Assembly: GCA_006384855.1 (NCBI GenBank)
Contig: VCJN01002132.1
Location: 1 to 64,000 of the forward strand
Source: Tetraselmis striata
Lineage: Eukaryota; Chlorophyta; Chlorodendrophyceae; Chlorodendrales; Chlorodendraceae
Length of the DNA stretch: 64,000 nt
Direction of reading: 5' to 3'
The notes beneath the pieces are model-generated. The model did not search any database and was not told the DNA's origin. It saw only the letters and a program-made list of their open reading frames with translations. Every line of letters starts with the position of its first letter. The first letter of the stretch is position 1. Shown here piece after piece: positions 416-60,780 of this stretch. The position numbers and the translations under genes were made by a program.

Positions 416-508
416 ATTTCAAACATGCAATCGGGGCTGGTTTTTGCCAAAAAGTGCGATGTTTTACACGAAAGAAGTGTCATTTTATGGCTAGGAAGGC
501 TCAGCAAA

Positions 509-537
509 GGGGGGGGGGGGGGGGGGGGGGGGGGGGG
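509..537 (+). repeat. 29-nt G homopolymer in N1 B2
   Basis: Uninterrupted G run. It lies where the B2 segment of sister element N2 has mixed pyrimidine/purine sequence, so it looks like an expansion within this copy. Confidence 0.9.
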
Positions 538-2443
538 AGCATGCAAGGCGGGAACGGAAAACGGGAGGGTGCCGCCGAAGGCAGCGAGCTGGAAGAGGGC
601 AGGCGAGCGGGCGGTGGCTGTTGTCTTAAGTAGCTCCCCCGCCGGGAACGTAGAGCTCGCGGGCGATGGGGCAACCCATACCGAAACCCATTGGCACCGG
701 TAAAACTAAATCGATTGAAACCACCAGCAGACCGTACGAGTTGCACTAGGACAACTAAATTGTTGGGAAATACCCCATAATCTAGTTCAGAACATTTCAA
801 ACATGCAATCAAGTCTGGCTTTGCCAATTACACGCGATTAGTTTACGACGATGACTGCGAGCGCGTGGGCAGTCGGCAGGCTTGCTGGCCAATACAAACG
901 AAGCCATAAGATGTAGTCTTGAGCAGTTATTCTAGAGGGGTCTACCGCCGAGAGGACGTACATGAACCTCGATTGAGGCGCATGCGCAGAACAGACGTGG
1001 ATGGGTGATGTCGGCGTCGGCGGACGTTGGAGCGACATCATAGACCGGACGCGTTATTGCGAAATCCAAGCGCCATGCAACAATTGCCACGCGCAGCACG
1101 GACCGGAACTGTAGTAAGGTAGGGCAGGTCGGCAACGAGTGCCCCGCAGAGAGGCACAGATAGGTCGAGTATGGGCTGCGCGAGCGGGCGCGCGAGCGTG
1201 CCGCGTATAGCTAGCTGAAATACGGAACGTTGTACGCGACGCGACGGCGGTAACTTTGCACATCTGCCGGGGGTGTACATTACGAGCAATAGGGGTGGAT
1301 ACGTGACGCCGCGCGACGACGGCGGTGTACGACCACTGCCACCACCATGGGCGGTCGCCGCACGAGGGGCGGCACCTGAAACGCATAACGCATCGGGGCT
1401 CGGGCACATGGAACCCAATGTGGCCGTGCCGCCGTACCGGTTTTGAGGTGTGTAGGGCTCGGTTCCCGGCGAGGTGGCATAAGACCCGCCGACGCGGTAA
1501 GTCGTCGTTGCGGGTCTCGCTTCGCGGAGTGTGGCAAGGCGGCCAGCTCTGATGCACAAGCAACGGTTGCCGACAAGCTCACAAGTTGCAGACCTACGAT
1601 GACGCCACGAAACGCATAGGTCGCGCGAAGTGGCGGAGCTGCCCCCCGGCGGGCAGCTCTTGATGCCAAAGGTGGGATGTCGTGAAGTCGGGACAGGTTA
1701 GCCGGCGTCGAGACTTTGACAGCCTACGCCGGCCCGTCACGACGCCATTGTTGTCGGTACGGGTGTAATGACTACGAGGCGGCCGCCGCTGATGCATCAG
1801 CGACGGCCGCCGACGTTCTAAACCATACAAGGGTAGATACGGACACCACTAGACGTCGAGCACGCATGGTAGGAGACTTGCCCCTCGGCAAGCATCTCCA
1901 GGTTGTTGTCCTTGTGACGACGACGACGTTGCAATATAGGAAGCGCCGGAAACGCGACGAACCGACCCGAGCGGACGTCTCCCACTGCAGCCACGGCAAA
2001 CGTTATTGCTGCGGCACGGTTAGGGCGACGAAGGCAACGAGCCCCCTCAAAACACAGGCGCATGAGCGGTGCCATCCTCGTAAAACACCGATTAGTTACG
2101 TGCGTGGTTCGGGAAAACCACAACGTGCAACGACCGTCAATTCCACGACGCCCTCCTACTGTGAGGACAGAAGGACCGAGTTATTGAAGTATTTTGCGGG
2201 ATGGCAAACGGCAGCTTTGACGATACGGACGTCCTCGTCCTCCGTACGCGACGAATTGTTGCGGTAGCCATAGTTGTCGTCGTTGACAACCGTGACAAGC
2301 AGCGGCCATGGTATACCGAGCGCGTTCGCCCCACCTAACCTCAAGAGTTGTTCATTGCAAAAGGATACCCCCTACTGCTGCGGGAGCCCATTCACGAAAT
2401 AAAGCTTACATGCGACTCGACCTCGGGGGTTGAGGGACACCAA

Positions 2444-2467
2444 CCCCCCCCCCCCCCCCCCCCCCCC
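2444..2467 (+). repeat. 24-nt C homopolymer in N1 body
   Basis: Uninterrupted C run. The homologous position in N2 (58127-58134, opposite strand sense) has only eight G, so the tract has grown or shrunk between copies. Confidence 0.9.
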
Positions 2468-2607
2468 TCCCAATGGGGACCTCCAGCTATAATTTCATAT
2501 CGCCATATCGCCATAACTCCGCATCGCCACCCGGCAACGTCCCAACTGCAAAGCCAAGGCAAAACGGAAAGCAACTTCGGGCGCACGAGTCGTACAAAGC
2601 ACACTAT

Positions 2608-2651
2608 AGTGGTATAAATAAAGGTGTTGCAACACCTTTATTTATACCACT
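2608..2651. repeat. 44-bp perfect palindrome inserted in N1
   Basis: Reads AGTGGTATAAATAAAGGTGT and then its exact complement, meeting at TTGCAA. A second GTGGTATAAA-like block sits just to the right (about 2650-2665). The homologous stretch of N2 lacks it, so it is probably a small fold-back insertion. Confidence 0.8.
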
Positions 2652-3143
2652 TTATGTTTATACCACTACCATGTTTGTCGTTGCCAATGATGTAACGCAT
2701 GTACGTGGCATGACAACTCAGACACTACCGGGAAAAGGAACCTCGGTGCGGACTTGATCATCCTTTGCGACCCTTGGGCGCACAATAAGTACGCGAATCC
2801 GCTGCAGTAGGCAGCGAGCTGGAAGGTGGCAGGCGAGCTGGTGGTGGCTGTGCTAAGGAGCTCCCCGGCCGAGAACGCAGGGCTCACGAGCGCGACGTGG
2901 CAGCCCGTACTGAAACCGGCTAGTACCGGTACTACCTCAACCGGTTGAAACCACCCGCATGATGTACATGGTACCTGTACGGGTTGCACTAGGGCACTTT
3001 TATATTGTTATGGGAAACTACCCCATACATAGGTACCCGTATGTTAAAATAGTTTAGTTGCTGAGAACTTGACGGCGAAGCAGGGGTACGAAAGCAGATG
3101 AGAAGCGTCATCGCCGACTGCAGTATCAGCTCCAAACCAACAC

Positions 3144-4367
3144 ATGATCAACTCCCGTCCTTGCGTTGGCTCCTTGCCAGGCACAAACCAACTACTCGCA
3201 GCCGGCCGCCGGCCATGTTACGGAATTGGCCAGATTGGCATATTGAATCTACCCCGCCCTGACAGCGGCCGTCACGCAGCGGGTGGGTGGTTGCCGGTTG
3301 CGATGGCGTCGCCGGCGACCCGGCAGGACGAAGAGAGCGGCAGGTTCGTGTACATCGCTCTGCATCCGCTTGTCGTCCGCACCGGCCCCAGCGTATGCGA
3401 CAAGTGGCAAAGCGAGCTGGCCGTGGAGCCAGGGGAGAACATCGCCGCGGACCTCCGTAGACAAGACCGCACATCGGGCAAGCCGCACGGCCCGTTCCCC
3501 CGCCTCTCGGACGGCGACGGGTGGCTGTTCGAACGCAAGAGCAACAAGCGCATGACGATGGAGCCGCTGCTTGTCTCCACCGGCTTGTGGTGTTATCGGG
3601 TCGACAACGAGCGCGGTGGCTTGGCACTCCGCGGGCATCCCACCCGCAGGTCAGATCTTCACTGCGACCTAGAGCAATTGTTTCCCCACGACATGGTTTT
3701 TGGGGCCGATAGGAACGTGGAGGCTGGCGGTACCACCTTTGTGCGGGTGCAAGGAACCGCCGGGTGGTTATTCGAAACTATCGACGGGAAGCATACTCTC
3801 ATGCCGTGCGACCCAACAGTCGGCCATCCCGTGCCGACCAACCAGCAAGTTCGGACGCTGGTTGCCCAGCACAGGCTCACAGAGCTCCTGTTCAACGAGA
3901 CCAACCGCGTTATCAGCTTTGTGTCTCGGCAAACCGAGGAGGGCACCGTCCGGATACATGTGTACTACACCACCGGCACCGTCGGCACCTGCCTCGAGCA
4001 CCCAGGCCTGGGCCGCACACAAATTTACCGCCGCGGCTGCACACTTGAGCAGCTCGCGGAGATCATGTCCAACCCCCGCGCTCACACGGAGAAGGGCTAC
4101 TACAAGAGGGGGGCCGCCAGCGTGGGAGACGCCGCTCTTGTAACTGTGAAGGCGTTTATGGAGCTGTTCTCCTCGGAGGAGATGGCCTTGCGGTCGGAGC
4201 TTCGGGTCTTGGAGGAGGAGACGGCGGGCTTAGCAAAGCAGCGCGAGGTGGTGCTCCAGCTGCTACATGCCCGGGAGGCCGAGAGGGCGGCGGTAGCCAA
4301 AGCGCAACTAGACTCCTCGAATGAGCAGAATAAGGACGAGGCCAAGAGGAAGCGCGCTCGGCGCTGA
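3144..4367 (+). CDS. multi-domain SH3-like protein with C-terminal coiled coil
   Basis: Open frame of 407 codons from a true ATG; an internal ATG at about residue 53 is an alternative start. Two tandem beta-rich blocks (about 68-146 and 147-225) each end in a GWLFE[R/T] motif followed by a basic/hydrophobic tail, the pattern of bacterial-type SH3-like domains seen in many algal multicopy proteins. A third block (about 245-330) holds the short motif NPRAHTEKGYYKRG. Residues about 335-407 are a charged coiled coil ending in a KRKRARR basic tail. The frame stops exactly where a second frame of the same apparent gene opens (4334-5142), so the stop may be a frameshift. Function is not known; a structural or surface role is only a guess. 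It lies 108 bp outside element N1. Confidence 0.55.
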   Translation: MINSRPCVGSLPGTNQLLAAGRRPCYGIGQIGILNLPRPDSGRHAAGGWLPVAMASPATRQDEESGRFVYIALHPLVVRTGPSVCDKWQSELAVEPGENIAADLRRQDRTSGKPHGPFPRLSDGDGWLFERKSNKRMTMEPLLVSTGLWCYRVDNERGGLALRGHPTRRSDLHCDLEQLFPHDMVFGADRNVEAGGTTFVRVQGTAGWLFETIDGKHTLMPCDPTVGHPVPTNQQVRTLVAQHRLTELLFNETNRVISFVSRQTEEGTVRIHVYYTTGTVGTCLEHPGLGRTQIYRRGCTLEQLAEIMSNPRAHTEKGYYKRGAASVGDAALVTVKAFMELFSSEEMALRSELRVLEEETAGLAKQREVVLQLLHAREAERAAVAKAQLDSSNEQNKDEAKRKRARR

Positions 4368-9668: not shown

Positions 9669-12600
9669 ATTCATGGTATCAGAATACACATTATGTACAC
9701 TTTCCGTATTAGAAAATTATAAAATATAATAATATATAACAATACATATTACACTGTACTATACTATTATAGTTTTCTTTTTTACTTTTCGTTTCATAGA
9801 CATACATGTGTATGTATACTTTCCTATGCACCACATAGACGTAGACATGCACTATTTCCCTCCATTCAAACACTAGTATCAAGAGCAGCATACTTCAGAC
9901 AGTAACCCCCCCCCCCCCCCCCCCCCCTCCCCCCCTTGGGCCCTTTGGCGATAGGGACATCAGGCATGGTGGTGGGCCGCGGGCCGTACCCGATGCCCCC
10001 TGCCTGCTGTATTGCCTGCGCAGGGGCAAAGCCCTCTCGATCCGTCTGCAGCTCCTCCGCGTAGGTGGGGCTTACTGTGAGCCGGAGGTCGCTCTGAAGC
10101 AGGGCGGCAGTGAGCCAGTTGAGCGCACCCGTTGACTCAATGCCTGTAGTGCCGGCAGTTGACGACTCGCCGACCCGCTCGGACGCTTCGCTCTTGGGGC
10201 TGGGGGCTCTCGGCGGCCACCGGAGCGCGGCCAGCGCGCTTGCGGGCAGGCCGAGCCTTGGGAATGCCTCCGCCGCGAAGATGCCCTGGTGGAGGCCGTT
10301 GTGCAGGCAGAACGCGATTTTGGCCCCACGCAGGCCGCGCGACACGGTGTTCCACACCGCGCGCAAGCTGGGCTTTGGGATGGCGGCGAAGCGCGAGAAC
10401 GGCGTCGTCGGCGTGCTCGGCGTGTCGTCGACACAATCGACGAAGCTGTCGCTGCTGGCATTCGCTTCGTCGATGAAGTCCCTTTCATCAAGCCTGTCGC
10501 CATCAGAATCCGCGTCGTCGTTGTCGGGCTCGTCGTCGAGCCAATCGTCGTCGTCGGCCGCTGACGACGAGACATCCGATTGGCCGTAGTGATACTTTAG
10601 CCACAGGACCAGCGGTGCGGAGGGCCAGTCGTTGGCGATGAATGTGAGCGGCGGCGCCCGCCCCCCTGCCGCCTTGTCGGATATGTCTATGGCCCCGACG
10701 GCACCGCCTAGCGCGCGGTCGCCGTCCCGAGGGGAATCGCCCCTCTGCCGTAGCGGCCCCGCACCACGCTGCGCATCGTTTCCAGCGTATCGACCAGACG
10801 ACGGACCCCGCTGTCCGTCGCCCCGGGCCATGTCATCTGCGCCTGCAGACCGTCGCGCACCGGCACCCGGTCGAATGCCGCCGGCTGCCTCGGCGCCCCC
10901 ACCGGCGTAGCCACCATCGCAGATGCCCCCCGTTGCCGCGTCCCGTTGATTTAAACCAGCTTTCCCCGAGTTGGTTCGGGCCGTTTGCCCGCGTGCGTTG
11001 TCGTCCGCATCGTCGCGGAGCGACGCCGACGAGGCGGCCCCGCCTTCCATTCCATCCCCGTCGCCAGCTTGGACGTTTTCGCTACAGGTCTCGCTGCGGG
11101 TAGGCTCGCCGCTGTCGACTCCACCGACTCTATCACGGGAGTACTCGACATAGCGATCCTGGTGGTAGTCGACGTAACGGTCGACACCATCGCCGCCGCC
11201 CCCTCTCTTCGCCGTTGAGGTGTCGGAGCGTGGTGTCTGTTTTCGCCGTCGTTCTCGCGCCGAGCCCTCGGCGCTGCGAATCCTGCGCAGCGAGCGGCGA
11301 TCGTCATCCTGCTCCCACTGCGGCACCACGCGGTGGGCGCTGTTGGCCAACCCTGAGGTCTGCGCCCGTGATATCGAGTGGCGCCTGTCGGGTTCATCGG
11401 CGTCCTCGTGGGCGTGCGCCGACATCGACGAGCTCGCAGGTCCAGCAGCCCCCCTCCGTACCGCTTCTGCGATAACAGGGACGGAAGCAACACGTAGTTT
11501 CGACGAAGTTAACCAACCCGTATGGCTGTAATAGATAGCGCCTTCACAATGATTCACCACGCACTGTGAGACTGTAGCTGGGTGCACATTTCCCTGACGC
11601 TGCGAGTAAACATGGATATAGTAGTGCAATCTTGCTGATGGCTGGTGCAACGAAATGAGGCTACAGAGTACTTATCGACAAGTGGGAATCGGTATGAACA
11701 GTGTCGCATACGAGAACATGGCCACAACGAAAAAAAATACGCGGTCACTTAAGATATATACTAACATCACCGGAGGACTAGGCATATTGTTCTCTGAGAT
11801 TCCATCTGCGGGTGACCGTACATGGCCCGTCGCCCGGGTTTATTCCCTGATAGGGCGCACATAATAACTGACGGACTGACGGACTGGTGGGAACAGTGAA
11901 ACAATCTCACGTACACCGTACCTATTGCATTGCTTCCATGTGTGCGCACATTAATTTAACAACATGTTACGTATTTGAGAATAAGCCTGTGACATATATA
12001 TTATGCACAGCTGCACACAAACAGCCATGACGCAGTCCTAGATTGCAGGCCTAAATGCAGCATCTAGTATTCATCTTGTGAGAGGGAAGACATCGGCCGG
12101 GAAGGAGGAGTCAGCGCATAAATGATTCCGGTGAGGGCAGACACTGCCTGCTGAATCCTGAGGGCATATATCCTACAAATCATCGACGATGAGGGTACCA
12201 CTGCCATTGTCTACGGGACATTGTGGAGCGTATCGAAATAGCCATCACGCACAGAAATAGGCCCCGGTCACAGGAGCCGCTACTGCAAGGGCAACTGATG
12301 CCTGAAGCTCATGGAATACATGGGGCCGCAAGGGGAGGGGGGGGGGGGGGGGGGCTTAGCGCGCGCATGGCGCACGAGAGTGCACACCGTGTACGCCGCC
12401 GCCAGGCTGCAGGGGGGTAGTCACTACCGTCCCGAGCCAGGGCGAGGAAGCAGTAGGCGGCGGCAGCGCACCGCTCCACAGCAGGACGGGCGCCGCGAGC
12501 GCCGCCTGGCTCAGCAGGCTGTACATGACGTCCAGGCAGGGGTGCGCGCCGGCGGGGCCGTAGGTGTAGATGCCCCCGCGCTGCAGGCTGAACAACGGGT

Positions 12601-13527
12601 GGTCCACAAACACGCGGTCCACGCCGCCGCGCGTGCACATGTACAGCGCCGCGTGTCGCATGTGGTGTGGCGTCGCTGCGGGATCGCCGCCCAGCTCCGT
12701 CCAGGCGGACAGGATGTCGTCCAGGGGCAGCGCCAGCGGGACGCGCAGGCCTGCGGGGAACCGCCGCCATAGGTGAGTCGGTCCTCGGATGTCACCGGGA
12801 CGATGTGTGCAACCAATTGGCTCGTCGTTTGCGCCATGCAAAGGCAGTCACGGCTGGGACCGCTGGTGTGTTGGTTCAACTGCTATGCTCGTGATGGTCT
12901 TTGTCCAAGGACAGGATGCGTGAATGGCATATTTGGGCCCCTGCCTATGCCACCACATATATCTCTACAGTCGATACCAGTGGTGGTTACGCACGTGGTT
13001 CGCGGCACGTGCTTATACTTGTACACAGCTAGGATACAGCCCTAGAACCATGCCGCCCATGGCCGTACAGATTTCCCAGAGCTTGCTGTTTGATGGCATG
13101 CACGGCTACTTATCCCCTAGTTCGTGTAGAGTCACACTCCAATTCCGCCAGCAAGCCAGCCCTGGACCCTCCGCATGGTAGCCTGAGAGGGCGACGCAGC
13201 CTTAGCACACGCACCTGTGTCGTACACGTCCGTATAGCGCCCATACATGGGCGCGACGCTCATGACCGCGTGCCCCCTCGCCGCCAGGTGCTTGGGCAGC
13301 GCCGCCGCGAAGTCGCCCAGGCCGCCCACCTTGGACCAGGGCGCCACCTCAGTGCTCACAAACACCACCCGCATCCGATTACTACCGCTGCTCCCAGAAG
13401 CTGACACGGCGGGCCGGCTGCGTCCAGCCGCTGCCGAGCCTGTTCGCGGCCGCTGACCGTCGCCATGCATCATCACCGTTCGCCCCCTGTTGCCGTCGAC
13501 GGCAGACGCTGTTGTCGCTGTCGACGC

Positions 13528-13559
<32 letters not shown>

Positions 13560-14112
13560 AATTGCTGCTTCGCCCGCCGCTCCGAATCGTGGCGTTTCGC
13601 TGGATTGAATGAATAGCACTAGTATTGGCCGGAGATAATCGATCATCAAGTACCCGTACGTCCGACGAAGAGGTCGCGTTCGTCCGATGAGACTGCCGCC
13701 GGCGCCCTCTCCCGCGTGGCGGCTGACATTGCAGCGAATTCCGTCGGGGGGTGGTCTTCCCTTGCAGGACCCCGATTCCTGTTGCACGCCGAGCCTCGGG
13801 AAACAGGTGGTACGAAGGCAGCCACTTGTTGCCGCTACAGATGTTTCCGTCGCTGACAGGTCCGGGCTGGCCGCTGCTTTGGGACGGGCACGGGCGCTCC
13901 CTGGAGTTACCCGTTTCTTCTCGGCGCGCCATCCTGTGGCTGGTACCTGGTGACGTACCATCGCCACTAGCCGCCGGCAGTTGCCCTCCCCTGCTTGCCG
14001 CCGGGTGACTCACAAAGCGCACCCGGTTTGCCAGGAACCCTCCTCCGCGGTCCAGCGGGAGCAGCCGCAGCCGGTGCTGGCGCGGATGCTGCAGTACAGC
14101 AGGCGGCGCCAT
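7470..14112 (-). CDS. starch synthase, GT5 family, plastid-type
   Basis: Transfers glucose from ADP-glucose to alpha-1,4-glucan in the plastid. Exons on the minus strand: 14112-13215, 12750-12472, 11466-9990, 9518-9068, 8545-8432, 7748-7470. Phases agree at all five junctions, giving 3498 nt, 1165 aa. Exon 1 has a roughly 245-residue Arg/Ser-rich leader with a poly-Ser run, then the ADP-glucose motif KVGGLGD (about 261-267). Exon 2 has [12 protein letters not shown] and [11 protein letters not shown]. Exon 3 has [27 protein letters not shown] and [13 protein letters not shown]. Exon 4 has [16 protein letters not shown] and [16 protein letters not shown]. Exon 5 has [16 protein letters not shown] and GGLRDIV. 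Exon 6 has the C-terminal helix with [12 protein letters not shown]. Exon 5 needs a GC donor. Two low-complexity insertions (about 270 and 70-80 aa) make it far longer than the usual 500-650 aa core. The motif around [10 protein letters not shown] resembles granule-bound forms, but I do not assign a class. Confidence 0.85.
8242..8261 (+). repeat. 20-nt G homopolymer in starch synthase intron 5
   Basis: Uninterrupted G run in the intron between exons 5 and 6. A second run of 21 G (8406-8426) abuts the inferred GC donor of exon 5. Confidence 0.9.
8590..8790 (-). repeat. dispersed repeat copy in starch synthase intron 4
   Basis: The reverse complement matches 49600-49735 over ordered blocks: AGGCAATGGTCT.CGGGC.ATGC, GAGGTCAAG.GCTGG and GATGTCCCG.GGC followed by a CTTTACTTT block. 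The tRNA-like head next to the 49.5-kb copy is absent here, as expected for a 5'-truncated short element. Confidence 0.5.
9589..9670. repeat. AT dinucleotide microsatellite in starch synthase intron 3
   Basis: About 80 nt of nearly pure (AT)n, in the intron between exons 3 and 4. Confidence 0.9.
9906..9935 (+). repeat. C-rich homopolymer in starch synthase intron 3
   Basis: 22 C, one T and further C, about 55 nt inside the donor of exon 3. Confidence 0.85.
12337..12354 (+). repeat. 18-nt G homopolymer in starch synthase intron 2
   Basis: Uninterrupted G run downstream of the exon 2 donor in the transcript sense. Confidence 0.85.
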
Positions 14113-14458
14113 GGCCTATCGCCCCGGGCGGCTCTATCCCATGCTGGCGCCCAGCGCGTGTTGGGATGAGGCAGCACGAAACACCGCCACGATCGCCGTT
14201 GCCGGTCCTCTGCCAGTCCGGGAAGTGCCTGGTGTGCACACGTGCCCCGGCCAAAGTTTGAGCCGGCAGGGAGGCGTCGTTTGGCTCCGACTGACCTGGA
14301 CTGACGACTATATTTCGCTTGTGAAAGACGATGCATAGAAGGGGTCCCGCTTAGTCAGCAGCGCAGCCGCCGGCGGGCCGCATCATATTAGACCACGACG
14401 ATGGAAGAGCTCGCAACGCAAAACCTCACGTCCTCGACAGCTCGTTTCGTTCCGCGAC
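14113..14458. other. spacer between starch synthase 5' end and element E1
   Basis: Presumed 5' flank of the starch synthase gene. No TATA-like or other promoter element could be picked out with confidence. Confidence 0.4.
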
Positions 14459-14578
14459 ATTTCAAAGTTGAGTCTGGTTTTGCCAAAAAGGTCGCGCAGG
14501 CTGTTTTACACGGTCAAGAGCCGAAATTGGCAGGAAGGTTTAGCGAAAAGCGTGGAGGGAAAACGGAGTCAGGGGGGG

Positions 14579-14763
14579 CGCTGCGTGGAACGCAGCGAAA
14601 ACTGGAAGATGGCAGGCTCAGCTGTTCTGGCTGCTTTTATGTCTACTCGTGCTGCACCCAACAAGGGCGCAACAACAGTTACTAGTTCCCGTACCACTGC
14701 GCAGCACTTGTAGCTGAAAAGCGGTTAGGTCAAGGATGGAAACCCCATAAACTAGTTTAGATC
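14579..14763 (-). repeat. A2 split direct repeat of E1
   Basis: Same 185-nt sequence as 17495-17679, starting CGCTGCGTGGAACGCAGCG (a small hairpin) and ending CTAGTTTAGATC. Confidence 0.9.
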
Positions 14764-14843
14764 ATTTCAAAGTTGAGTCTGGTTTTGCCAGTCTTGAGCG
14801 AACGGAGAGAGCGGTGGATTGACGGAGAAGGGGTAGCGCCAAG

Positions 14844-16469
14844 TCATGAAGGAGGCACTGGGAAGGCCACCGCTGCGGAGTCCTGTTGGACTTGGAAGTG
14901 GCGGAGGGGGGCGATGTGTCCAAAGAAGAACCACGCGCCAGGAGAAGGAAGAACGTTGGGGTCGATGTAGTCCAGAACGACATCAGAGTTAGTGGCCCAA
15001 CCGCCTTGGTAGCGGATGTGGGACAGTGGCGCTCCAATGGCGTTTGCTGCAGTGGCTGCGCCCTTGCGTAAACTGTGTGAAGTCCAGGAAGTGCCAGCAG
15101 GGGGGGCAGCGTTGACTAGGTTGACTGCTGTAGACAACCAGTCTGACATCGTAGTAGCAGTCCAAGGTTTCGACTGCTCAGCCACATTGACAGCCCAGAA
15201 GTTGGAGGTAGCCAAGCCAACAGTAACCAGGGGGACAGACTGGACGTTGTCGATGAAGTAGCGCAAGAGACGTGCCACTCGAGGGTGCTCGGACACTGGA
15301 AGGAGAAGTACGCGCAGGTCGTCAGGTCCCCGCCGGCCGGCGCGACCCTTCTCGCGGTAGATCTGCAAGGTGATGTTGTAGGTGTCGACATGCACATCTT
15401 GCACTCGACAGGAGACGCCAGTAAGGCCCCTGGCAAAGAACAGGAAGTTGACAACCGAGGCCAAGAGGGCTCGGTAGTCGAGGTGGGACTCTGGGTAAGG
15501 AGCAGACACAATTAGCTCGGCCTTTGAGACGAAGCGGTAAGCTACATCCGCAGGCAGAGGGACACGCAAAGGGGCAGCGTCCAGTCGACGCTGACGTAAC
15601 ATTAACCCACGTCTTGCAGAAGTGAGGTGTAGGCTGTCCTTGGCGATCGGGACGAGGTTGTGCAGCTCGAAGAAGGTGTTGATGGCAGACAGATAGGGCT
15701 GTAGCGACTTAGCTGCGATATGCCCTCGCTCCCCGATCCAGGCAACGTACCGAACAACAGTAGCAGTAGTCGCTTCTAGCGGGCTGATGTTCTCGGAGTC
15801 GTGGCAGAACTCAGCAAACTGAGCCAACCTGCCGGCGTAGCTCTTGAGGGTCTGAGCGCTGAGGGAGCTGGAGAGCAAGTCGAGCGTCCGCTGGCCTAGC
15901 TCGTCTGAGCCGAACGCGTCCTGTAGTCGGGATCGCAGTGACGCAGCCCACGGAGCGACAGCTGCGGGCTCGTTGATTACGTAAGTGCGTCGTTTTACTG
16001 ACAGAGTGCCACCGGCACGGCTACTGTTCGCAAAGTACTCGGCAGCAGCGGTTAGGTTCCCGGCGGTTGGCCGGTAGTTGCTGGACGGGTTTGCAGTAGC
16101 TTCAGTACGGGTTTGCGGGGCTAGGTTCAGGTAGGCGGGCCGCCCCGCGCGCCCTTCGCGCTCATAGCGCCTGTCCCGTGCGTAACGTACACGCGCGAAA
16201 CTTGGTCGTTGCGAACCGGTTGTAACTCGTAGTGTAACAACCGACGAACGCAGCCACGGGGTTGTAAGAAAGGCGGATGGTTGAGCCGCCATGTGCAGGT
16301 GTGCGGATGGTTGAGCCGCACTCGGCTGTAGCTGTAAGAAGCGCCGCACCGAGGAAGGTCTAAATGAAGTCTGTAAGGTGGGGGGGTCAGGTCCTGACAC
16401 AGGGCGCTCATCCCGCCGTTGAGCTGCAAGGGTGCGTCTTGCGGCGGTCACCGAAAGGTGGCCTCGCAA
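14844..16469 (-). CDS. ORF2: tyrosine recombinase (integrase) of E1
   Basis: Open frame of 541 codons; the first ATG is at 16292, so the 5' start (initiation at that ATG, splicing or continuation from ORF1) is undecided. Family knowledge: these enzymes cut and rejoin DNA through a 3'-phosphotyrosine. The N-terminal 200 residues are basic and Ser/Pro-rich. Residues about 200-300 form a core-binding-like helical domain (SAQTLKSYAGRLAQFAEFC). The catalytic set is visible, numbered from the frame start: Arg347 in FFARGLTGVS, a candidate Lys374 in YREKGRAG, His465-x-x-Arg468 in HSLRKG, Trp491 in QGGW and Tyr501 in VLDYID. Degraded copies lie in E2 and E3. It sits 36 nt after ORF1 on the same strand, consistent with one element transcript. 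Confidence 0.82.
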   Translation of the reverse strand: MRGHLSVTAARRTLAAQRRDERPVSGPDPPTLQTSFRPSSVRRFLQLQPSAAQPSAHLHMAAQPSAFLTTPWLRSSVVTLRVTTGSQRPSFARVRYARDRRYEREGRAGRPAYLNLAPQTRTEATANPSSNYRPTAGNLTAAAEYFANSSRAGGTLSVKRRTYVINEPAAVAPWAASLRSRLQDAFGSDELGQRTLDLLSSSLSAQTLKSYAGRLAQFAEFCHDSENISPLEATTATVVRYVAWIGERGHIAAKSLQPYLSAINTFFELHNLVPIAKDSLHLTSARRGLMLRQRRLDAAPLRVPLPADVAYRFVSKAELIVSAPYPESHLDYRALLASVVNFLFFARGLTGVSCRVQDVHVDTYNITLQIYREKGRAGRRGPDDLRVLLLPVSEHPRVARLLRYFIDNVQSVPLVTVGLATSNFWAVNVAEQSKPWTATTMSDWLSTAVNLVNAAPPAGTSWTSHSLRKGAATAANAIGAPLSHIRYQGGWATNSDVVLDYIDPNVLPSPGAWFFFGHIAPLRHFQVQQDSAAVAFPVPPS

Positions 16470-16505
16470 GGCTCCTGCAGCTCCGACGAACGGCGCCCCA
16501 CACCG

Positions 16506-17381
16506 TCACTCGTGCTCACCTTCGCGGCCACGTCCACGTCCGCCGCCACGTCCTCGCCCACGCCCGCGACCTGCAGCTGCAGCCGCCACTCGAGAAGTAG
16601 CGGTCGCCTTGGCGCTGCTGGCGACGGTCGCCTCGAAGACACGACGCTCGTAGTCCCGCATGAGGTCCCCAAAGATCGCGGAACCCAGATGCTCCGAAGC
16701 AGGCTGAAAATGCTGGGTCCGCAGCACATCCAGAACACCTTGGTCACCGTGCACACGCTTGATCTCATTGAGCTTCCGTAGGAAGGCCAGACGAAACCGA
16801 AACGCCTTGTCGATGGCCTCGGCGTGGTTCCGGGCTCTCGCGAGGTAGGGGGTGAAGTCCTGGTTAGTGGCGGGGACGTAAGGTAGCAGCTCGTCGAGCG
16901 CCACGAAAAGGGCGGCCATGTGGGCCCCGAAACACGACATCCACAAGTACTCCTCCTGGGCCGGCAGACGCCGGTCATCCTGCTTGAGGTACTCGTTCGT
17001 TAGGTCGGTGCTCAAAGGGAAAAGTCCAGGCACTCGGCTGACCGGTCGAACGGCCTCGTAACCAGACTCTGCTCTCTGCAGTAGCTCTGGCACCGCGAGG
17101 TAATCATCCTCGGCACTCACGGATTTTGCTCCGACACGGCCGCTCTGGGCTAGCTCTAGCAAGTCGGGGCGCTCTGCGGCTCCCCCGCTGCCTGTCGGCT
17201 GTCCCGCGAAGCGCTGCCCTGAGCCGGAGCCATGTGCCCCTTCTCCATCAACAACGCGATCACGAGCCGTCAATTGTGCCACAGCTGTAGCCAGCTCTCG
17301 CAGTAATGAAGACTGGGCCCTCATATCTGCGTTCAGCGACTGCAACGTCGGCTCGGCGACGGGTTCTTCTCCATCTGACAT
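16506..17381 (-). CDS. ORF1: gag-like RG-rich protein of E1
   Basis: Starts at the ATG at 17381 (MSDGEEPV); the open frame begins slightly earlier without an ATG. About 291 aa: an acidic start, a coiled-coil-like stretch (SLLRELATAVAQLTARD), a Gly/Ser linker, a conserved middle with EEYLWMSCFGAHMAALFVAL and ARARNHAEAIDKAFRFRL, and a C-terminal RG/GR tail ending REGEHE. The tail suggests nucleic-acid binding. No zinc knuckle is present. The place ahead of the recombinase fits a Gag-like role in DIRS-type elements, but that is inference. Related copies lie at 35461-36340 and 62291-63104, and a more distant relative at 23239-24048. Confidence 0.75.
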   Translation of the reverse strand: MSDGEEPVAEPTLQSLNADMRAQSSLLRELATAVAQLTARDRVVDGEGAHGSGSGQRFAGQPTGSGGAAERPDLLELAQSGRVGAKSVSAEDDYLAVPELLQRAESGYEAVRPVSRVPGLFPLSTDLTNEYLKQDDRRLPAQEEYLWMSCFGAHMAALFVALDELLPYVPATNQDFTPYLARARNHAEAIDKAFRFRLAFLRKLNEIKRVHGDQGVLDVLRTQHFQPASEHLGSAIFGDLMRDYERRVFEATVASSAKATATSRVAAAAAGRGRGRGRGGGRGRGREGEHE

Positions 17382-17494
17382 AGTAACGCACGGACGTACG
17401 GACGAGAATATCACACTCGGATGGCGAGCCGGGTGTGGTCTTGAACAACCTGGGGTGACCTTGCTCGCAACGGGTTACGAGACAGTTTTTACAT

Positions 17495-17679
17495 CGCTGC
17501 GTGGAACGCAGCGAAAACTGGAAGATGGCAGGCTCAGCTGTTCTGGCTGCTTTTATGTCTACTCGTGCTGCACCCAACAAGGGCGCAACAACAGTTACTA
17601 GTTCCCGTACCACTGCGCAGCACTTGTAGCTGAAAAGCGGTTAGGTCAAGGATGGAAACCCCATAAACTAGTTTAGATC
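17495..17679 (-). repeat. A1 split direct repeat of E1
   Basis: Identical by eye over 185 nt to 14579-14763. The preceding GGGTGACCTTGCTCGCAAC stretch is conserved in E2 and E3. Confidence 0.9.
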
Positions 17680-17682
17680 ATT

Positions 17683-23069: not shown

Positions 23070-24660
23070 GAAAGTTATTGAATCAGCGATGCGTCGATTT
23101 TTCAGAAAATTTCAAAAGAACGGGTTCTATGTCACTGACCTACAATTCCATGAATTGCATTGCCAGCTTTGAAGTAGTCGCTACGAACAGCGAGCGTTTG
23201 CATTGCCAGCGCTTTGAAGTACCAGAGTTTTTTTTCCATTACCAGCAGTGAGTAGCGAGTACCAGTACCAGTACCAGCAGCGAGTACCAGTACCAGCAGC
23301 TTTTAGGGCCGCTTTTAGGCGGCTTGCTGTGTTGATTTTCTAATTCTGGGGAACTGTCCTTTTTGTAATTCACACCAGTACCAGCAGCGAGCGTTCGCAG
23401 TGCCAGCGCTCTGAAGTACCCGAGTTTTTTTTCCTGGCGGATAAACGCCAGGAAGTCGCGCCGGTGTTTATTTGAGGCGTCGTAGGCCGCCACGCCCGCT
23501 TCAAGGAGGCGAAGGTCCTCCTCACCAGGGGGCTGCGCCGCGCTTGCCGCTCTCTTAATCGACGCGAGCGCCTCGCAGAGAGCCGCGTGGGCCACCGCAT
23601 CGTAGAAGCCAAAGCAGTACAGAGAGCGGTACTGATCCAAAGTGGCCCAGTGCCGACGCGCGATGAGCTGGCGGTGCGTCTCGTCAGATGAGATGTCGTA
23701 CAGTTGGGGAATCGGAGAGAGGCCGGGACTGGGCTGGACGGAAAAGCCGGGGCCAATTAAATGAGCCCACTCCTCCCAGACTAAGGAAGGGGCAGCGGCA
23801 CTAGGGCCACCGCGCTGGGGCTGGGGCACGGAAACCTGCTCTGCGCGAGCCGGTGCGTCGTGCTGGGAGCTCGCCGCGGCAGCGCTACTAGCGGGCGCGC
23901 GGGGCTCGGTAGGAGTAGAACCACTAGGCCGCTGAAGGTCACTTCGTAGGGCTTCCAGAAGCTCCGTAAGCCCCGCGAAACCGGCCTCCAGCGCGGCGAT
24001 GCGGTCTTCGGCTAGGCCACTAGGGGCGTCACCGGAGTTGTCAGGCATACTGAGCCCTGACAATGCCGTGCGCAGGGCGTCGTGCTAGCGCAGGCGGATA
24101 ATATCGACAAGGATCGCTTCCCCTCGCGGCACAGGTGCCGCGCGATTGCTGGTGCGTGAAGCGCAACAGCAAAAGGGATGAGCGCTATGGTCTAGACAGT
24201 TGGCTAAGTAGTAGCTGCAGGCAGGCAGGGAAACATGTCGGGAGCTGGTGCGGTCGCGAGTCCGCTGCTCACTGTCCCATCCTGGAAGATTCTAGACAGA
24301 GCCGATGACTGGCTACTGTGCTATATTTTCCAGGTGGTAGTCGTTCGACCGCACAACTCGGTCCGTCGTCTGACTAAACTCAGTTAAGTACTTAACAACG
24401 ATTACCAGCAGCGAGTAGCGAGTACCAGTACTCATAGCGTCCCATCCGTGAGATGGTAATCGAACGGCTGTGTAATTAAGGACCGTGGGTGGGCGGGTGG
24501 GTGGGCGGGTGGGTGGATTATAGTACTTAGTAGTAAAAGTCAGTAGATAAGCGCTTTAGTCATGCACCTATAGGCCCGACCCGCTGCACTATACGGGTAC
24601 CCGTACGGCAATAAAGCTCACCGCCGAAAAATCGACGCTTCGCTGATAAACATCGTTGCG
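23070..24660 (-). mobile_element. gag-fragment element with CCAGTA-rich internal repeats
   Basis: Left (about 23070-23240) and right (about 24403-24660) flanks surround the gag-like frame 23239-24048. Both inner edges carry TTACCAGCAG.GAGTAGCGAG. The same outer flanks occur fused, without the internal part, at about 40130-40535. The coding frame runs directly into CAGTACCAG-type repeats, so the internal region is truncated. No recombinase or reverse transcriptase is visible. Confidence 0.6.
23239..24048 (-). CDS. gag-like ORF, distant relative of E1 ORF1
   Basis: The ATG at 24048 opens MPDNSGDAPSGLAEDRIAAL; about 269 aa to the stop. Layout resembles E1 ORF1: an acidic start, a coiled coil (AALEAGFAGLTELLEALRSDL), a Pro/Ser/Ala linker, then a helical core with YRSLYCFGFYDAVAHAALCE and a basic helix (NKHRRDFLAFIRQEKKLGYF). 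The last 20 or so residues (Trp/Tyr/Leu/Val-rich) are translated from CCAGTA repeats and are probably not original protein sequence. A Gag-like role is inferred from this shared architecture only. Confidence 0.5.
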   Translation of the reverse strand: MPDNSGDAPSGLAEDRIAALEAGFAGLTELLEALRSDLQRPSGSTPTEPRAPASSAAAASSQHDAPARAEQVSVPQPQRGGPSAAAPSLVWEEWAHLIGPGFSVQPSPGLSPIPQLYDISSDETHRQLIARRHWATLDQYRSLYCFGFYDAVAHAALCEALASIKRAASAAQPPGEEDLRLLEAGVAAYDASNKHRRDFLAFIRQEKKLGYFRALALRTLAAGTGVNYKKDSSPELENQHSKPPKSGPKSCWYWYSLLVLVLVLATHCW

Positions 24661-32040: not shown

Positions 32041-32309
32041 GTTCAAGTTGAGTCTGGTTTTGCCAAGAAGGTCGCGCAGACTGTTTTACACGACTGGTCA
32101 AGAGCCGAATATGCAGGATGGTACCCGTATAGCGAAAGCGTGGAGGGAAATCGGAGTCAGGGGGGGCGCTGCGTGGAACGCAGCGAAAACTGGAAGATGG
32201 CAGGCTCAGCTGTTATGGCTGCTTTTTTTATATCTACTCGTGCTGCACCCAAAAAGGGCGCAACTAGAGATGCCTAGTTATTCCCGTATACCACTGAGCA
32301 GCACTTGTA

Positions 32310-33655
32310 CACCCCTCCACATAAGTTTGGGGTCCTTTTTTGGCTGAATCTGAAATGAAAAATACTAGGGTACCTAAACGTAGGGCTTTAGGGCTAAAAC
32401 CCGGGAATGTTTTAGGTTGTTACAAAACCTTTTGCTTGATAGGGTCTGAATTATAACCTAGTACCCCCTAAGAATAGGGTATTGCGATCTGGCGCGGGGT
32501 TCAAAGGGCATGACGCAGTGATGCACAACAATACATGTTCTTGGCACATATATGATGGCCCACATGCTTAGAGCATTGTATGGTGCAATGGCCGTAGATG
32601 TGTGAGGAAACATAGTAGCTCGCGGGTTGGGTGGGTTTGGGCGGGCATAGTCACGTAAGGCAGAGTGGTTGGACACACGTGCGTGTGACGATGCTAGGAC
32701 CAGTGCAGTTTTGCCCACTGCAAGCGACACCCCCTTGATTTCAAACGTTTATAGCGGCTCAGGGAGTGCTCCAAAAATTCCAAAAAAAATGCGCAAAAAA
32801 TCCTTGCGTCAAACGCAGGAGGTGATTTTCGGTTTCTGAGCACCTAATTTGCACGTTTTGACCACTTTCTAGCGATGAACATATAATACATCAATCACGG
32901 CATCGTTTCGCAACACTCGGCCTCAACATGGGGGCGTAGCTTTGCGCTATGTGTGTTCCCTTACTGTATACGCATTTGTGTGACAGTGTTATGAATGTAG
33001 ATGCACACGGGCGGCGCAAACTTGCCACATGCTCCCTCTCTAGCCATGTCCTCGATGGTCAACAACATTGTGATGTTTTCAATATAGTATTTTTGCTAAT
33101 ATTCAAGCATGTAATAGCGCGCTGCTATGTGGCATTCTACTTGTGATTCGGCGCAATTGCCATGCGTGCACGTGACCCCCATTGATGCGCTCTCGCCTAA
33201 GCCAAGGAGGGCACAATAAGCCTTTCATGCGTGAGTAGGCAACAACAACACCATTTTTGGCCGAAAATCACGCCATGTAGTGGTGAAACTGTAATTTAGG
33301 GCTTGTGCAATACCCTTTGTGACCTATTCTTGGTGCCCCACACATGTTGTAGGTGTACCTTACACTAAAGATGACAGCATGTCAGTACGGCGTGGATTTG
33401 TGCGTTGGATGTACGCGTACGAAGGGATGGCGCAACTTGTTATTTTCAGTGCAAGTTTTACACGCGTTGATTTGCCATTTCTCGAGGGGCGCAGAACGAC
33501 GCATGCCATGTCGCACGGTTAGGCCTAGAGCGCGCCCCCATTTTTTCCCAAGTCGACCTCGCCCTTAGTCACTTGCATGCAATTGCCCACGCCGTATTTT
33601 CTACATGACATGCGCATGTCGAACAAAAATGCAAAACCCAAACTTATGTGAAGGG
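32310..33655. mobile_element. 1346-bp TIR element nested in the E2 A2 repeat
   Basis: Flanked by TTGTA on both sides (32305-32309 and 33656-33660). The uninterrupted site CACTTGTAGC is present in the sister A repeat of E2 (near 36583), and E1 has the same site. The ends are inverted: the left has CCCTCCACATAAGTTTGGG and the right complement has CCCTTCACATAAGTTTGGG. No transposase frame is visible inside, so it is non-autonomous. A 5-bp duplication with such ends does not fit a superfamily I can name securely. Confidence 0.85.
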
Positions 33656-33739
33656 TTGTAGCCGAAAAGCGGTTAGGTCAAGGGAGGAAAACCCATAAAC
33701 TAGTTTAGATCACTTCAAGTTGAGTCAGGTTTTGCCAGT

Positions 33740-34960
33740 CATGAGCGAACGGAGAGAGCGGTGGATTGACGGAGAAGGGGTAGCGCCAGGTCATGAAGTA
33801 GGCACCGGGAAGGCCACCGCTGCGGAGTCATGTTGGACTTGGAAGTGGTGGAGTGGGGCGATGTGGCCAAAGAAGAACCATGCGCCAGGTAAAGGAAGAA
33901 CGTTGGGGTCGATGCAGTCCAGCACGACGTCGGAGTTAGTAGCCCAGCCGCCATGGTAGCGAATGTGGGACAATGCATGGTACTCCGATGGCGTTGGCTG
34001 CAGACGCTGCTCCCTTGCGAAGGCTGTGTGAGGTCCAGGAAGTGCCGGCGGGAGGGGCAGCACCGACAAGACGGACGGATGTAGTCAATCAGTCCGACAT
34101 TGTAGCGGCAGTCCAAGGTTTTGACTGTTCGCTCGGGGTGACCGCCCAGAAGTTTGTTTCAGCCAAGGCAACAGTAACCACGGGGACAGACTATACGTTG
34201 TCGATGAAGTGGTGCAGGAGACGTGCAATTCGGGGGTGCTCTGACACCTGAAGGAGAAGTACGCGCATGTCATCGGGTCCCCGTCGGCCAGCGCGGGCTT
34301 TCTCGCGGTACACATGCACGGTAATGTTGTAATCGTCGACATGCACATCCCGCACTCTGCAGGAGAGGCCAGTAAGTCCTCTGGCAAAGAACATGAAGTT
34401 GACAACCGAGGCCACGAGGGCTGAGAAGTCGTGTTGGTACTATGGGGTGGGAGCAAACACAATCAGCTCGGCCTTTGTGACGAAGCGGTAAGGTACACCA
34501 GCAGGCAGAGGAACTCGCAAAGGGGCGGTTTCCAGGCGGCGCTGCCGCAGCATCAGCCCACGCCTTGCCGAAGTGAGGTGTAGGCTGTCCTTGGCGATTG
34601 GGTCGAGGTTGTGCAACTCGAAAAACGTGTTGATCGCAGAGAGGTAGGGTTGCAGTGACTTAGCTCCAATGAGCCCTCGCTCACCAATCCAGGCTACGTA
34701 CCGAACGACAGTAGCAGTGGTCGCCTCCAGCGGGCTGATGTTCTCGGAGTCATGGAAGAACTCCGCGAACTGAGACAGTTTGCCGGCGTAGCTCCCGAGT
34801 GTCTGAGCGGTGAGGGAGCTGGAGAGCAAGTCGAGTGTCCGTTTGTCCTAGCTCGTCTGACCCGAAAGCATCCTGCAGTCGTGATCGCACTGAAGCAACC
34901 CAGGGAGCGACAGCCTCGGGCTCGTCAATTACGGAAGTGCGTCGTTTTACCGACATAGTT
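33740..34960 (-). pseudogene. tyrosine recombinase remnant of E2
   Basis: Segments in different frames match E1 ORF2: an N-terminal part with SVKRRTSVIDEPEAVAPW, a core-binding part (LTAQTLGSYAGKLSQFAEFF), a middle with FFARGLTGLSCRVRDVHVD (catalytic Arg kept) and a C-terminal part with SHIRYHGGWATNSDVVLDCI. In that last block the nucleophile Tyr position reads Cys (LDCID against LDYID in E1), so the enzyme would be dead even if the frames were joined. The upstream N-terminal region (to about 35400) is also recognisable but broken. Confidence 0.7.
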
Positions 34961-35460
34961 TTAGAGGTGCGACTACCGTTTGCAAAGTACTCGGCAGCAG
35001 CGGTTACGTTCCCGGCGGCTGGCCGGTAGATGCTGGACGGGTTTGCAGTAGCACCAGTACGGGTTTGCGGGGCAAGGTTCAGGTAGGAGGGCCGCCCCGC
35101 GCGCCCTTCGCGCTCGTAGCGCCTGTCGCGCGCGTAACGTACACGCGCGAAACTTGGTCGTTGCGAACCAGTTGTAACACGCAGTGTAACAACCGACGGA
35201 CGCAGTGATGGAATGGTACGGGAGGCGGTTGGTTGAGCCGCGCCGTGTGCAGGTGTGCGGATGGTTGAGCCGCACTCGGCTATAGCTGTAAGAAGCGCCG
35301 CACCGAGGAAGGTCTAAATGAAGTCTGTAAGGTAGGGGGGTCAAGTTCTGACACAGGGCGCTCCCGCCGTTGACAGAGTTGCAAGGGTGCGCTTTGCGAC
35401 GGTCACCGAAAGGTGGCCTCGTAAAGCTCCAGCAGCTCCGACGAAAGGCGCTCCACACCG

Positions 35461-36340
35461 TCACTCGTGCTCACCTTCGCGACCACGCCCGCGTTCACCG
35501 CCACGTCCTCGTCCACGTCCGCGACCTGCAACTGCCGCCGCCACCCGAGCAGTAGCGGTTGCTTTGGCGCTGCTGGCCACAATCGCCTCGAAGACGCGAC
35601 GCTCGTAGTCCCTCATGAGGTCCCCAAAAATCGCGGAACCCAGATGCTCAGAAGCAGGCTGAAAGCGTTGAGCTCGCAACACGTCCAGAACACCTTGGTC
35701 ACCGTGCACACGCTTGACCTCATTAAGCCTCCGTAGGAAGGCCAAACGAAAGCGAAACGCCTTGTCGATGGCTTCGGTGTGGTTCCGAGCTCTCGCGAGG
35801 TAGGGGGTGAAGTCATGATTTGCAGCAGGGACGTAAGGCAGCAACTCGTCGAGAGCCACGAAAAGTGCGGCCATGTGGGCGCCGAAACACAACATCCATA
35901 AATACTCCTCCTGGGCCGGCAGACGCCGGTCATCCTGCTTGAGGTACTCGCTCGTTCGTTGGGTCGGTGCTCAGGGGGAAGAGTCCAGGCACTCGGCTGA
36001 CCGGTCGAACGGCCTCGTAACCAGACTCTGCTCTCTGCAGTAGTTTCGGCACCGCGAGGTAGTCATCCTCGTCACTCACGGATTTTGCTCCGACACGGCC
36101 GCTCTGGGCTAGCTCTAGCAAGTCGGGGCGCTCTGCGGCTCCCCCGCTGCATGTCGGTTGTCCCGCGACGCGCTGCCCGGAACCGGAACCATGTGCTCCT
36201 TCTCCATCAACAACGCGCTCACGAGCCGTCAATTGGGCCATCGCTGTAGCAAGCTCTCGCAGTAATGTAGATTGGGCCTTCACATCTGCGTATAGCGACT
36301 CGAGAGTCGGCTCAACAACGGGTTCTTCTCCATCTGGCAT
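35461..36340 (-). pseudogene. gag-like ORF1 remnant of E2
   Basis: Starts at an ATG (36340, MPDGEEPVVEPTLESL) and aligns along its length with E1 ORF1. A small insertion near 35950-35960 (a duplicated CGTT-type motif) shifts the frame; the C-terminal half (35895-35461) continues with MAALFVALDELLPYVPAA and ends in the RG-rich EGEHE tail. Confidence 0.7.
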
Positions 36341-36639
36341 GGTAACGCACGGGCGTACGGATGAGAATATCACACACGGGTGGTGAGCCGGGTGTGGTCT
36401 TGAACAACCTGGGGTGACCTTGCTCGCAACAGGTTACGAGACAGTTTTAACATCGCTGCGTGGAACGCAGCGAAAACTGGAAGATGACATGCTCAGCTGT
36501 TATGGCTGCTTTTATGTCTACTCGTGCTGCACCCAAAAAGGGCGCAACGACAGATGCCTAGTTCCCGTACCACTGAGCAGCACTTGTAGCCGAAAAGCGG
36601 TTAGGTCAAGGGAGGAAACCCCATAAACTAGTTTAGATC

Positions 36640-48112: not shown

Positions 48113-48840
48113 TTAAATAAGGTCATAGTCGCGCTGCTTGCCGAGCCGCTCCTCATACCGAAATAGCGAGAGCTCCAGGGCTTTTAGCAACGCGATGATG
48201 CTCGGCATGTTGCCCTTCTGGACCCCATTTCCGTTGCGGACAGCGCGATACTGAGGTACTCCAACGAGCTTCGGAACGTTCGGCCGATCTGCCTTATGTC
48301 CGAGTTTCTTCTTCCCAAAGAACTGCGCCAAGCGTTTGTCCGGCGGGGTTGGCCCTTTGCATAGCTACTTTCATCATACCCCAGATACAACGCCAGTCTT
48401 GGAACGAGAGCTGAGAGGGAACAAGGCGCGATGGAAGGCGAAGACGAAGTCGAAGCCGACCGATTTAGCCATGTCCGCCGACCAACCGACGCCCTCTAAC
48501 TCTTGCCAGTCTATCAGGGAGTTGTATTGCTGTTTTTTGGCAGACAGCGGGGCGCCGCTAGGCACTTTGTGAGTAGGGAGGCGGTGATGACTCTCAGGAC
48601 TCGCTCGGCGCTGAATCAGTCTCGTCTCGTTCTCGTCTCAAGGAACGCCATGGTGTCTGTGACTGCCTCTAGCAGGAACGCTGTGCAGTCTCGCAAAAGC
48701 CCACGGTCGAGCCGGGTGCCGGCCATGCACACCATCTTGATATCGGTGTCAGCAAGCAGGGGGTGGTAGTCGGGGGCGTGGGCCTCGATTGCCTCATTTA
48801 GCTGGCCCGTAGAGTTCTTGTCGCCCCATCATCCACTCCT
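48113..48840 (-). pseudogene. broken ORF inside the TIR element
   Basis: Minus-strand segments in changing frames look once-coding: HPLLADTDIKMVCMAGTRLD with RDCTAFLLEAVTDTMAFLET near 48790-48640; QQYNSLIDWQELEGVGWSAD near 48530; and FFGKKKLGHKADRPNVPKLV with GNMPSIIALLKALELSLFRY to a stop at 48113. At least two frame breaks. The family is not recognised and no DDE triad is identified. Confidence 0.4.

Positions 48841-60746: not shown

Positions 60747-60780
<34 letters not shown>

Follow-up and report, generated by a model that had tools for sequence, protein, structure and literature searches.

By published accounts, PAT elements are retrotransposons that encode a recombinase and have split direct repeats (PMC3266345, PMC4157794), and PAT-like families have been reported in chlorophytes (PMC3266345, PMC4157794, PMC8226300). 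As described, PAT, TOC and Kangaroo elements of Chlamydomonas, Volvox and nematodes carry a tyrosine recombinase in place of an integrase and are presented as bearing reverse transcriptase (RT); Toc3-like members are reported without a gag zinc finger (PMC4157794), and TOC1 of Chlamydomonas is termed retrotransposon-like (PMC7722844). The Ngaro and VIPER elements are outlined with an A1-B1A2B2 plan, and isolated AB repeats as well as SIRE, which corresponds to the A2-B2 part of VIPER, as reduced forms (PMC8547959, PMC6681497). DNA recombinase elements, as summarized, carry the recombinase alone (PMC4157794), and Cryptons are characterized by the lack of long direct repeats (PMC3212892). Here we describe E1, a complete 3.2-kb tyrosine recombinase element at positions 14459-17682 (minus strand) of a 64,000-nucleotide stretch of Tetraselmis striata DNA (GCA_006384855.1, contig VCJN01002132.1, positions 1 to 64,000), referred to as the window. 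E1 shares its split direct repeats and its recombinase with the PAT/TOC/Kangaroo elements but belongs to a lineage without RT, RNase H or methylase. We propose that E1 and two related copies, E2 and E3, probably represent an RT-less, semi-autonomous PAT/DIRS-type lineage, for which another element's RT would carry out reverse transcription in trans while the lineage's own recombinase would perform the integration.

In the sense orientation E1 is arranged as A1 - ORF1 - ORF2 - B1 - A2 - spacer C - B2, where ORF denotes an open reading frame; all of its features lie on the minus strand. The A1 repeat, which forms the 5' end of the element (17495-17682), and the A2 repeat (14579-14766) are identical at 188/188 positions, and the B1 repeat (14764-14790) and the B2 repeat at the 3' end (14459-14485) at 27/27. 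Repeat comparison matched 14579-14766 with 17495-17682 over 188 bp, and 14458-14485 with 14763-14790 over 28 bp. ORF1 (16506-17414) encodes a gag-like protein of 302 aa, and ORF2 (14844-16469) encodes a tyrosine recombinase of 541 aa whose start codon is uncertain. A chance origin of the repeats was considered and rejected: a 16-bp piece of B had nine matches in the window with at most three mismatches (0.45 expected), and 0/100 shuffles reached nine. The strict ends of E1, 14461 and 17679, are both flanked by a shared AT (AATG) core; the element proper starts with GATCTAAAC and ends with TTTGAA, and the same AT within AATG occurs at both outer ends and at the internal B1-A2 joint. At the core positions of E2 and of a further element, E4, the bases were not alike between the two ends, and only E1 would fit crossover by the recombinase at a short core better than duplication at a staggered cut.

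The A1-body-B1-A2-B2 arrangement of split direct repeats is that of PAT-like elements, with an extra 93-bp spacer before B2 (spacer C, 14486-14578), to which related sequence was found in E2, E3 and E4. These termini had been reported in a first-pass annotation of this DNA and were borne out by the repeat identities, as was its 2.7-kb body, which measured 2704 bp from A1 to B1; its repeat order was confirmed as well, but its account omitted the unique spacer between A2 and B2. The same annotation had placed R347, HxxR 465-468, W491 and Y501 in ORF2. All were found at those positions, and K374 completed the set (R347, K374, H465, R468, W491, Y501), so that ORF2 has the R-K-H-R-W-Y signature of a PAT-like tyrosine recombinase. 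ORF2 matched Pfam Phage_int_SAM_1 (E 6.6e-8) and Phage_integrase (E 4.4e-4, under its cut-off). The AlphaFold model of ORF2 (mean pLDDT 59) was of good quality across a large share of the catalytic region but poor at residues 1-174; its best match in the PDB was Cre (E 1.6e-9), which was also returned by a profile search of the PDB. The catalytic site is conserved among Tetraselmis relatives: the alignment comprised 129 clusters, those of the 133 Tetraselmis proteins with at least one catalytic position aligned, and of the 118 that span all six positions 108 retain all six.

No RT was detected in ORF1 or ORF2 by Pfam, and neither Pfam analysis of the ORFs nor tblastn of relatives revealed RT, RNase H or methylase in E1. 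When 31 related proteins (P0136-P0166) and P0132, a further relative, were compared with the window by tblastn, 114 matches were obtained at E <=1e-3; 113 of these lay where E1-E3 carry ORF2, and the other lay at 23.4-23.8 kb, in a gag-like stretch. With queries limited to the RT, RNase H and methylase pieces, the whole window yielded only two matches, both weak, at 3522-3674 (E 0.041) and at 48126-48290 (E 0.45), and both places are outside the elements E1-E5. E1 thus lacks the RT and RNase H of PAT-like and Ngaro elements and the Dam-like methyltransferase of PAT-like elements. It has in common with Cryptons a recombinase without RT, but its 188-bp and 27-bp repeats do not agree with the Crypton feature of terminal repeats of only 4-6 bp and no long direct repeats.

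The absence of RT appears to extend to the lineage. A search of 5.8 billion proteins with ORF2 gave 337 matches; among the 120 listed, 119 were from Tetraselmis striata (Tetstr1), clusters representing 341 member sequences, and one was metagenomic (P0002). These 120, together with 15 longer matches (14 Tetstr1 and P0132), formed a set of 135 proteins, all of which matched ORF2 and 121 of which also matched ORF1 (14 had no ORF1 match). The distance between the ORF1 and ORF2 matches had a median of 22 aa and a maximum of 61 in Tetraselmis, against 727 in P0132; one distance was negative, that of P0121, a model with tandem copies. PAT-type RT, RNase H and methylase queries matched 1/135 proteins, P0072, which begins with a short segment of RNase H (E 1e-8), whereas as a control the same queries matched 31, 30 and 31, respectively, of the 31 proteins P0136-P0166. 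No RT match to the PAT-type queries was obtained in the 133 Tetraselmis-named proteins (P0132 and P0002 excluded). Two models, P0080 and P0122, carry Pfam RVT_1 (under the cut-off in P0122) joined to ORF1 or recombinase pieces; they were considered as RT-bearing Tetraselmis members and rejected as likely gene-model chimaeras. The PAT-type RT, RNase H and methylase queries matched neither of them at E up to 1, and their RTs read, from sequence, as Ty3-like and LINE-like. Several other Tetraselmis models fuse ORF1 pieces to unrelated host domains.

Two additional copies of the element were found in the window, both on the minus strand and with decayed ORFs. E2 (32042-36639), which is broken by a nested insert, is colinear with E1 at 88%, and E3 (60141-63259), whose 5' end is truncated with A1 cut to 46 bp, is colinear at 75%. 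All three copies align unbroken across the ORF1-ORF2 junction, which indicates shared gene content rather than separate deletions. The first-pass annotation had held that the lack of RT was not a one-off event, and this was upheld by the colinearity of E1-E3 and by the recurrence, across divergent Tetraselmis sequences, of ORF1 and recombinase models without PAT-type RT. The counter-case it had named, separate internal deletions with different breakpoints, is contradicted by the same alignments. Its statement that three related copies share this gene content applies to E1-E3 but under-counted the elements, as E4 and E5 were missed. These results support the RT-less pair of ORF1 and recombinase as a stable, lineage-wide feature of the Tetraselmis gene models examined. 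The insert in the A2 repeat of E2 (32310-33658, about 1.35 kb) has 20-bp terminal inverted repeats (18/20 match) and a TA duplication, features that make it mariner-like, and contains no ORF of at least 150 aa.

E4 and E5 have the architecture and end motifs of E1 but not its genes. E4 (57667-60112, plus strand) consists of A1 (57674-57882), a 1.85-kb body, B1 (59728-59759), A2 (59762-59970), a spacer related to C of E1, and B2 (60082-60113); its A1 and A2 are identical at 98% over 209 bp, and its B1 and B2 at 94% over 32 bp. E5 (about 418-3050, minus strand) is more decayed (A1/A2 75%) and is colinear with E4 at 69.7% over 2601 columns. E6 (49016-49197, minus strand) is a lone A-type repeat of the same family, with 72% identity to the E4 A repeat, and is perhaps a solo remnant. 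None of the 166 fetched proteins matched in E4 or E5, five ORFs taken from E4 and E5 had no Pfam match, and the differences between E4 and E5 showed no third-position excess, unlike those in ORF1 and ORF2. Their bodies were therefore called non-coding, and we read E4 and E5 as probable gene-less passengers that form a non-autonomous family. TOC1 is a non-autonomous split-repeat element, like E4 and E5, and on the basis of its description is distinguished from E1, which codes for a recombinase and a gag-like protein. The tail ends of E3 and E4 face each other at a distance of approximately 30 bp.

The history of the A repeats was assessed by comparing pairs within and between elements. At sites where the four repeats of two elements split two against two, all 8/8 in E1/E2 and 17/17 in E4/E5 grouped by element and none by position (25 to 0). 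Polarised at sites where E2 and E3 agree, E1 had seven changes, each shared by its two A copies, and no single-copy change. E2 had eight single-copy changes and none paired. E6 polarised 9/17 of the E4/E5 sites, of which five had changed in both E5 copies and four in both E4 copies. Over ungapped columns, A1/A2 identity was 100% in E1, 96% in E4, 95% in E2 and 75% in E5, and approximately 91% in E3 over 46 bp. In a tree of the A repeats that omitted the 46-bp A1 of E3, the E1 pair was joined with a support of 97 and the E4 pair with 99. Movement as DNA with both A repeats would give likeness of A1 to A1 and of A2 to A2 across copies; instead, the repeats split by element. The pairs appear equal at birth and then drift, in E5 down to 75%, which argues against continual gene conversion. 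Whenever a copy arises, a single template seems to give rise to both A repeats. As in long terminal repeat (LTR) pairs, the identity of the two is lower in decayed copies. Renewal of both repeats at each birth is a retroelement feature, observed here in few elements (four pairs). In the split-repeat replication model of Goodwin and Poulter, RT copying over the internal B1-A2 junction reportedly renews the repeats. For an element that has no RT of its own, repeats renewed from one template suggest that the RT should come from elsewhere.

ORF1 had been called gag-like in the first-pass annotation as a guess. Support for it comes from the N-terminal region of the RT-bearing P0132, which ORF1 resembles (29% identity over 153 aa, BLASTP E 2e-12). 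The match scored 55.8 bits compared to at most 23.9 in 300 shuffles, and was also obtained by phmmer (E 1.5e-12). The sequences of both ORFs indicate purifying selection. By a simple Nei-Gojobori count, the ratio of nonsynonymous to synonymous change (dN/dS) of ORF1 was 0.14 between E1 and E2, and on the E1 branch, at codons shared by E2 and E3 only, the ratio was 0.12 for ORF1 and 0.18 for ORF2, compared to 1.17 and 1.26 in out-of-frame controls of ORF2. Third positions accounted for 50/77 (E1/E2) and 74/128 (E1/E3) of the differences in ORF1, and for 131/234 and 181/337, respectively, in ORF2. Selection on ORF1 and ORF2 indicates that both have been used since E1-E3 parted, after the loss of RT. 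Tetraselmis gene models among P0001-P0135 fuse ORF1 with the frame of the recombinase or with upstream exons unrelated to it, and several do so at one and the same point, near GQRF, which may mark a genuine splice acceptor in ORF1.

The nearest relatives outside the Tetraselmis clade carry RT or RNase H. A search of long proteins with the P0132 recombinase gave 37 matches: P0132 itself, five from T. striata, 28 from Cymbomonas tetramitiformis, one metagenomic (P0143) and two of unstated species. Among nine relatives scanned, seven had RVT_1 above the cut-off; eight matched RNase H and five matched Dam methylase, but almost all of these matches were under their cut-offs; P0143 holds RNase H and recombinase. 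P0132, a gene model of 1488 aa in ENA, has a gag-like N-terminal region and a recombinase 39% identical to ORF2, and in the +1 frame its middle encodes RT-RNase H, with scores of 279 (P0138), 256 (P0143) and 83 (P0163), compared to at most 51 for the real +2 frame and at most 46 for 12 shuffles on P0143. P0132 is, by this reading, a public protein in which a retroelement with RT-RNase H was translated in the wrong frame. When ORF2 and P0132 were used as queries against viral contigs, no relative was found.

A recombinase tree was built from 24 rows, obtained by greedy clustering of 148 recombinase regions after removal of rows shorter than 300 aa (Tetraselmis) or 250 aa (others), and was rooted at the midpoint with two long branches. 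The Tetraselmis rows and P0002 formed one clade (100/99), P0132 was next (97/95), and P0143 and the Cymbomonas proteins lay outside. Because these nearest outsiders carry RT or RNase H, the data are most simply read as a single loss of RT along the stem of the Tetraselmis clade. P0132 resembles E1 in its gag-like region, whereas P0132, P0143 and the RT-RNase H-recombinase proteins of Cymbomonas, which are known as proteins only, differ from it in keeping the RT/RNase H region, whole or in part. The first-pass annotation had likened E1 to both Ngaro and PAT elements; the Ngaro repeat order holds, but domain content (RT, RNase H and, under the Pfam cut-off, a Dam-like methylase in Cymbomonas) and nearest neighbours, in a tree made up of green-algal and unnamed relatives, suggest an affinity with PAT/DIRS-type relatives. 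Two traces of PAT-type kin occur in the host, the RNase H segment in P0072 and, at 23.4-24.1 kb, a second gag lineage. The latter is a fragment (23437-24063, minus strand) that over 112 aa is 34% identical to the gag-like region of P0132, and is a probable trace of another recombinase retroelement; it runs into short tandem repeats.

The first-pass annotation had left a choice between a stable lineage that borrows RT and a recombinase DNA transposon that moves by circle excision. The stable RT-less lineage is supported, and borrowed RT is favoured by the concerted evolution of A1 and A2, selection on the gag-like gene, the RT-bearing nearest relatives, and the gene-less elements of the same plan. 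A gag-like gene would be of use to an RNA cycle but not obviously to an excised DNA circle. We propose that E1-E3 belong to a high-copy lineage in which the segment encoding RT, RNase H and methylase, between gag and recombinase, was lost, most simply once, before the Tetraselmis sequences diverged. RNA from A1 to B2 would be packaged by the ORF1 protein and copied by the RT of another element; the internal B1-A2 junction would serve as template to rebuild both ends. The product would be a circle with a B-A junction at its closure, and ORF2 would insert this circle at a short AT/AATG core. E4 and E5, which have no genes of their own, may be carried as passengers by machinery of this type.

A transposon moving as DNA only, which after the loss of RT would excise as a circle at short cores and reintegrate in the manner of Cryptons, with the split repeats as a relic, would account for the complete and conserved recombinase (all six catalytic positions kept in 108/118 fully covered clusters), the fact that none of the copies and gene models examined has a PAT-type RT, and the short core that flanks both ends of E1. 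However, it leaves unexplained the joint change of A1 and A2 (25 to 0), selection on ORF1, and the A-B-A-B plan of E4 and E5, in which no genes are recognised, and we consider it unlikely. Somewhat less likely again is a retrotransposon that has reverted to a DNA element, whose excised circle would be copied by host DNA polymerases, with the B1-A2 template renewing the ends and gene-less passengers carried along. About as improbable as such a reversion is that E1-E3 are ordinary non-autonomous deletion derivatives of RT-bearing Tetraselmis masters with the same recombinase, their ORFs appearing selected through descent from the masters. The RNase H fragment in P0072, the RT-bearing relatives elsewhere, the decay of E2 and E3, and the fact that the gene models cover the best 120 of 337 ORF2 matches are consistent with that origin; against it, 0/133 Tetraselmis-named proteins had a PAT-type RT match, and the changes specific to E1 themselves have ratios of 0.12-0.18. 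That each of the three copies lost RT by its own internal deletion is scarcely credible: nothing was found in its favour, and the alignments of E1, E2 and E3 cross the ORF1-ORF2 junction uninterrupted. As to the source of a borrowed RT, it is very unlikely that one of another class (LINE or Ty3/gypsy) copies the RNA with no tyrosine recombinase (YR)-type helper: RVT_1 of other kinds in P0080 and P0122 suggests that other RTs are present in the genome, through joins that look chimaeric, but the split-repeat plan is said to suit PAT/DIRS replication, and traces of the PAT/DIRS class are present (the P0072 RNase H and the second gag lineage).

Several results weigh against an RT-less retroelement served in trans. 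We infer the RNA intermediate, the cDNA, the circle, the RT in trans and the mobilisation of E4 and E5 by E1-type proteins from sequence, and copy numbers derive from predicted proteins rather than DNA. No intact helper RT was found among the Tetraselmis proteins examined; the five T. striata proteins from the P0132 recombinase search (818-2604 aa) had no PAT-type RT, a weak silence, as that search missed longer T. striata recombinase proteins known from another search. A profile of 100 ORF1 rows found P0132 only weakly (E 0.0027), tblastn of P0132 on the window gave no ORF1 match, similarity to ORF1 was absent from the Cymbomonas proteins in profile and phmmer searches, and the fold model of ORF1, which is predicted to be helical, had a mean pLDDT of 45, too weak to reveal a capsid fold. 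The dN/dS of ORF2 was higher, at 0.40 (E1/E2), 0.55 (E1/E3) and 0.57 (E2/E3), and the remaining ORF1 pairs gave 0.28 and 0.33; frameshifts and decay in E2 and E3 blur these pairs. In the A-repeat tree, the E5 pair had a support of 61, and A1 of E2 was not joined to A2 of E2 (support 24).

Beside E1, the minus strand at 9866-14112 holds parts of a gene for starch synthase, with Glyco_transf_5 matches at 9866-11650 and 13132-14112; E1 starts approximately 350 bp past the ORF at 13132-14112.

E1 fits none of the PAT, DNA recombinase element and Crypton descriptions in full. Owing to its PAT-type build minus RT and its RT-bearing nearest relatives, we file it as a PAT-like variant without RT, neither a PAT member proper nor a Crypton. 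By their descriptions, Ngaro and VIPER share its repeat plan but encode RT, and Cryptons share a recombinase without RT but are devoid of long direct repeats. In concept, the closest precedent is found in plants, the TR-GAG LTR element, which as summarized keeps gag, has no RT and transposes in Arabidopsis ddm1 (PMC8704663); E1 differs in that it belongs to another class and supplies its own integration enzyme. At the level of titles and abstract openings, with most subscription papers outside the coverage, the literature searched showed no RT-less gag and recombinase element with split repeats.

Integration by recombinase retroelements and the action of their proteins in trans have been little tested. 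The E1 lineage separates these functions, since a gag-like protein and a recombinase occur without RT, beside elements of the same plan with no recognised gene. In this small system one could address the role of the split repeats, the possible action of the recombinase in trans, and the identity of the RT used in the cycle. The lineage also indicates that the presence of RT is an unsafe test for retroelement status, as a scan based on domains only would place E1 among the DNA recombinase elements.

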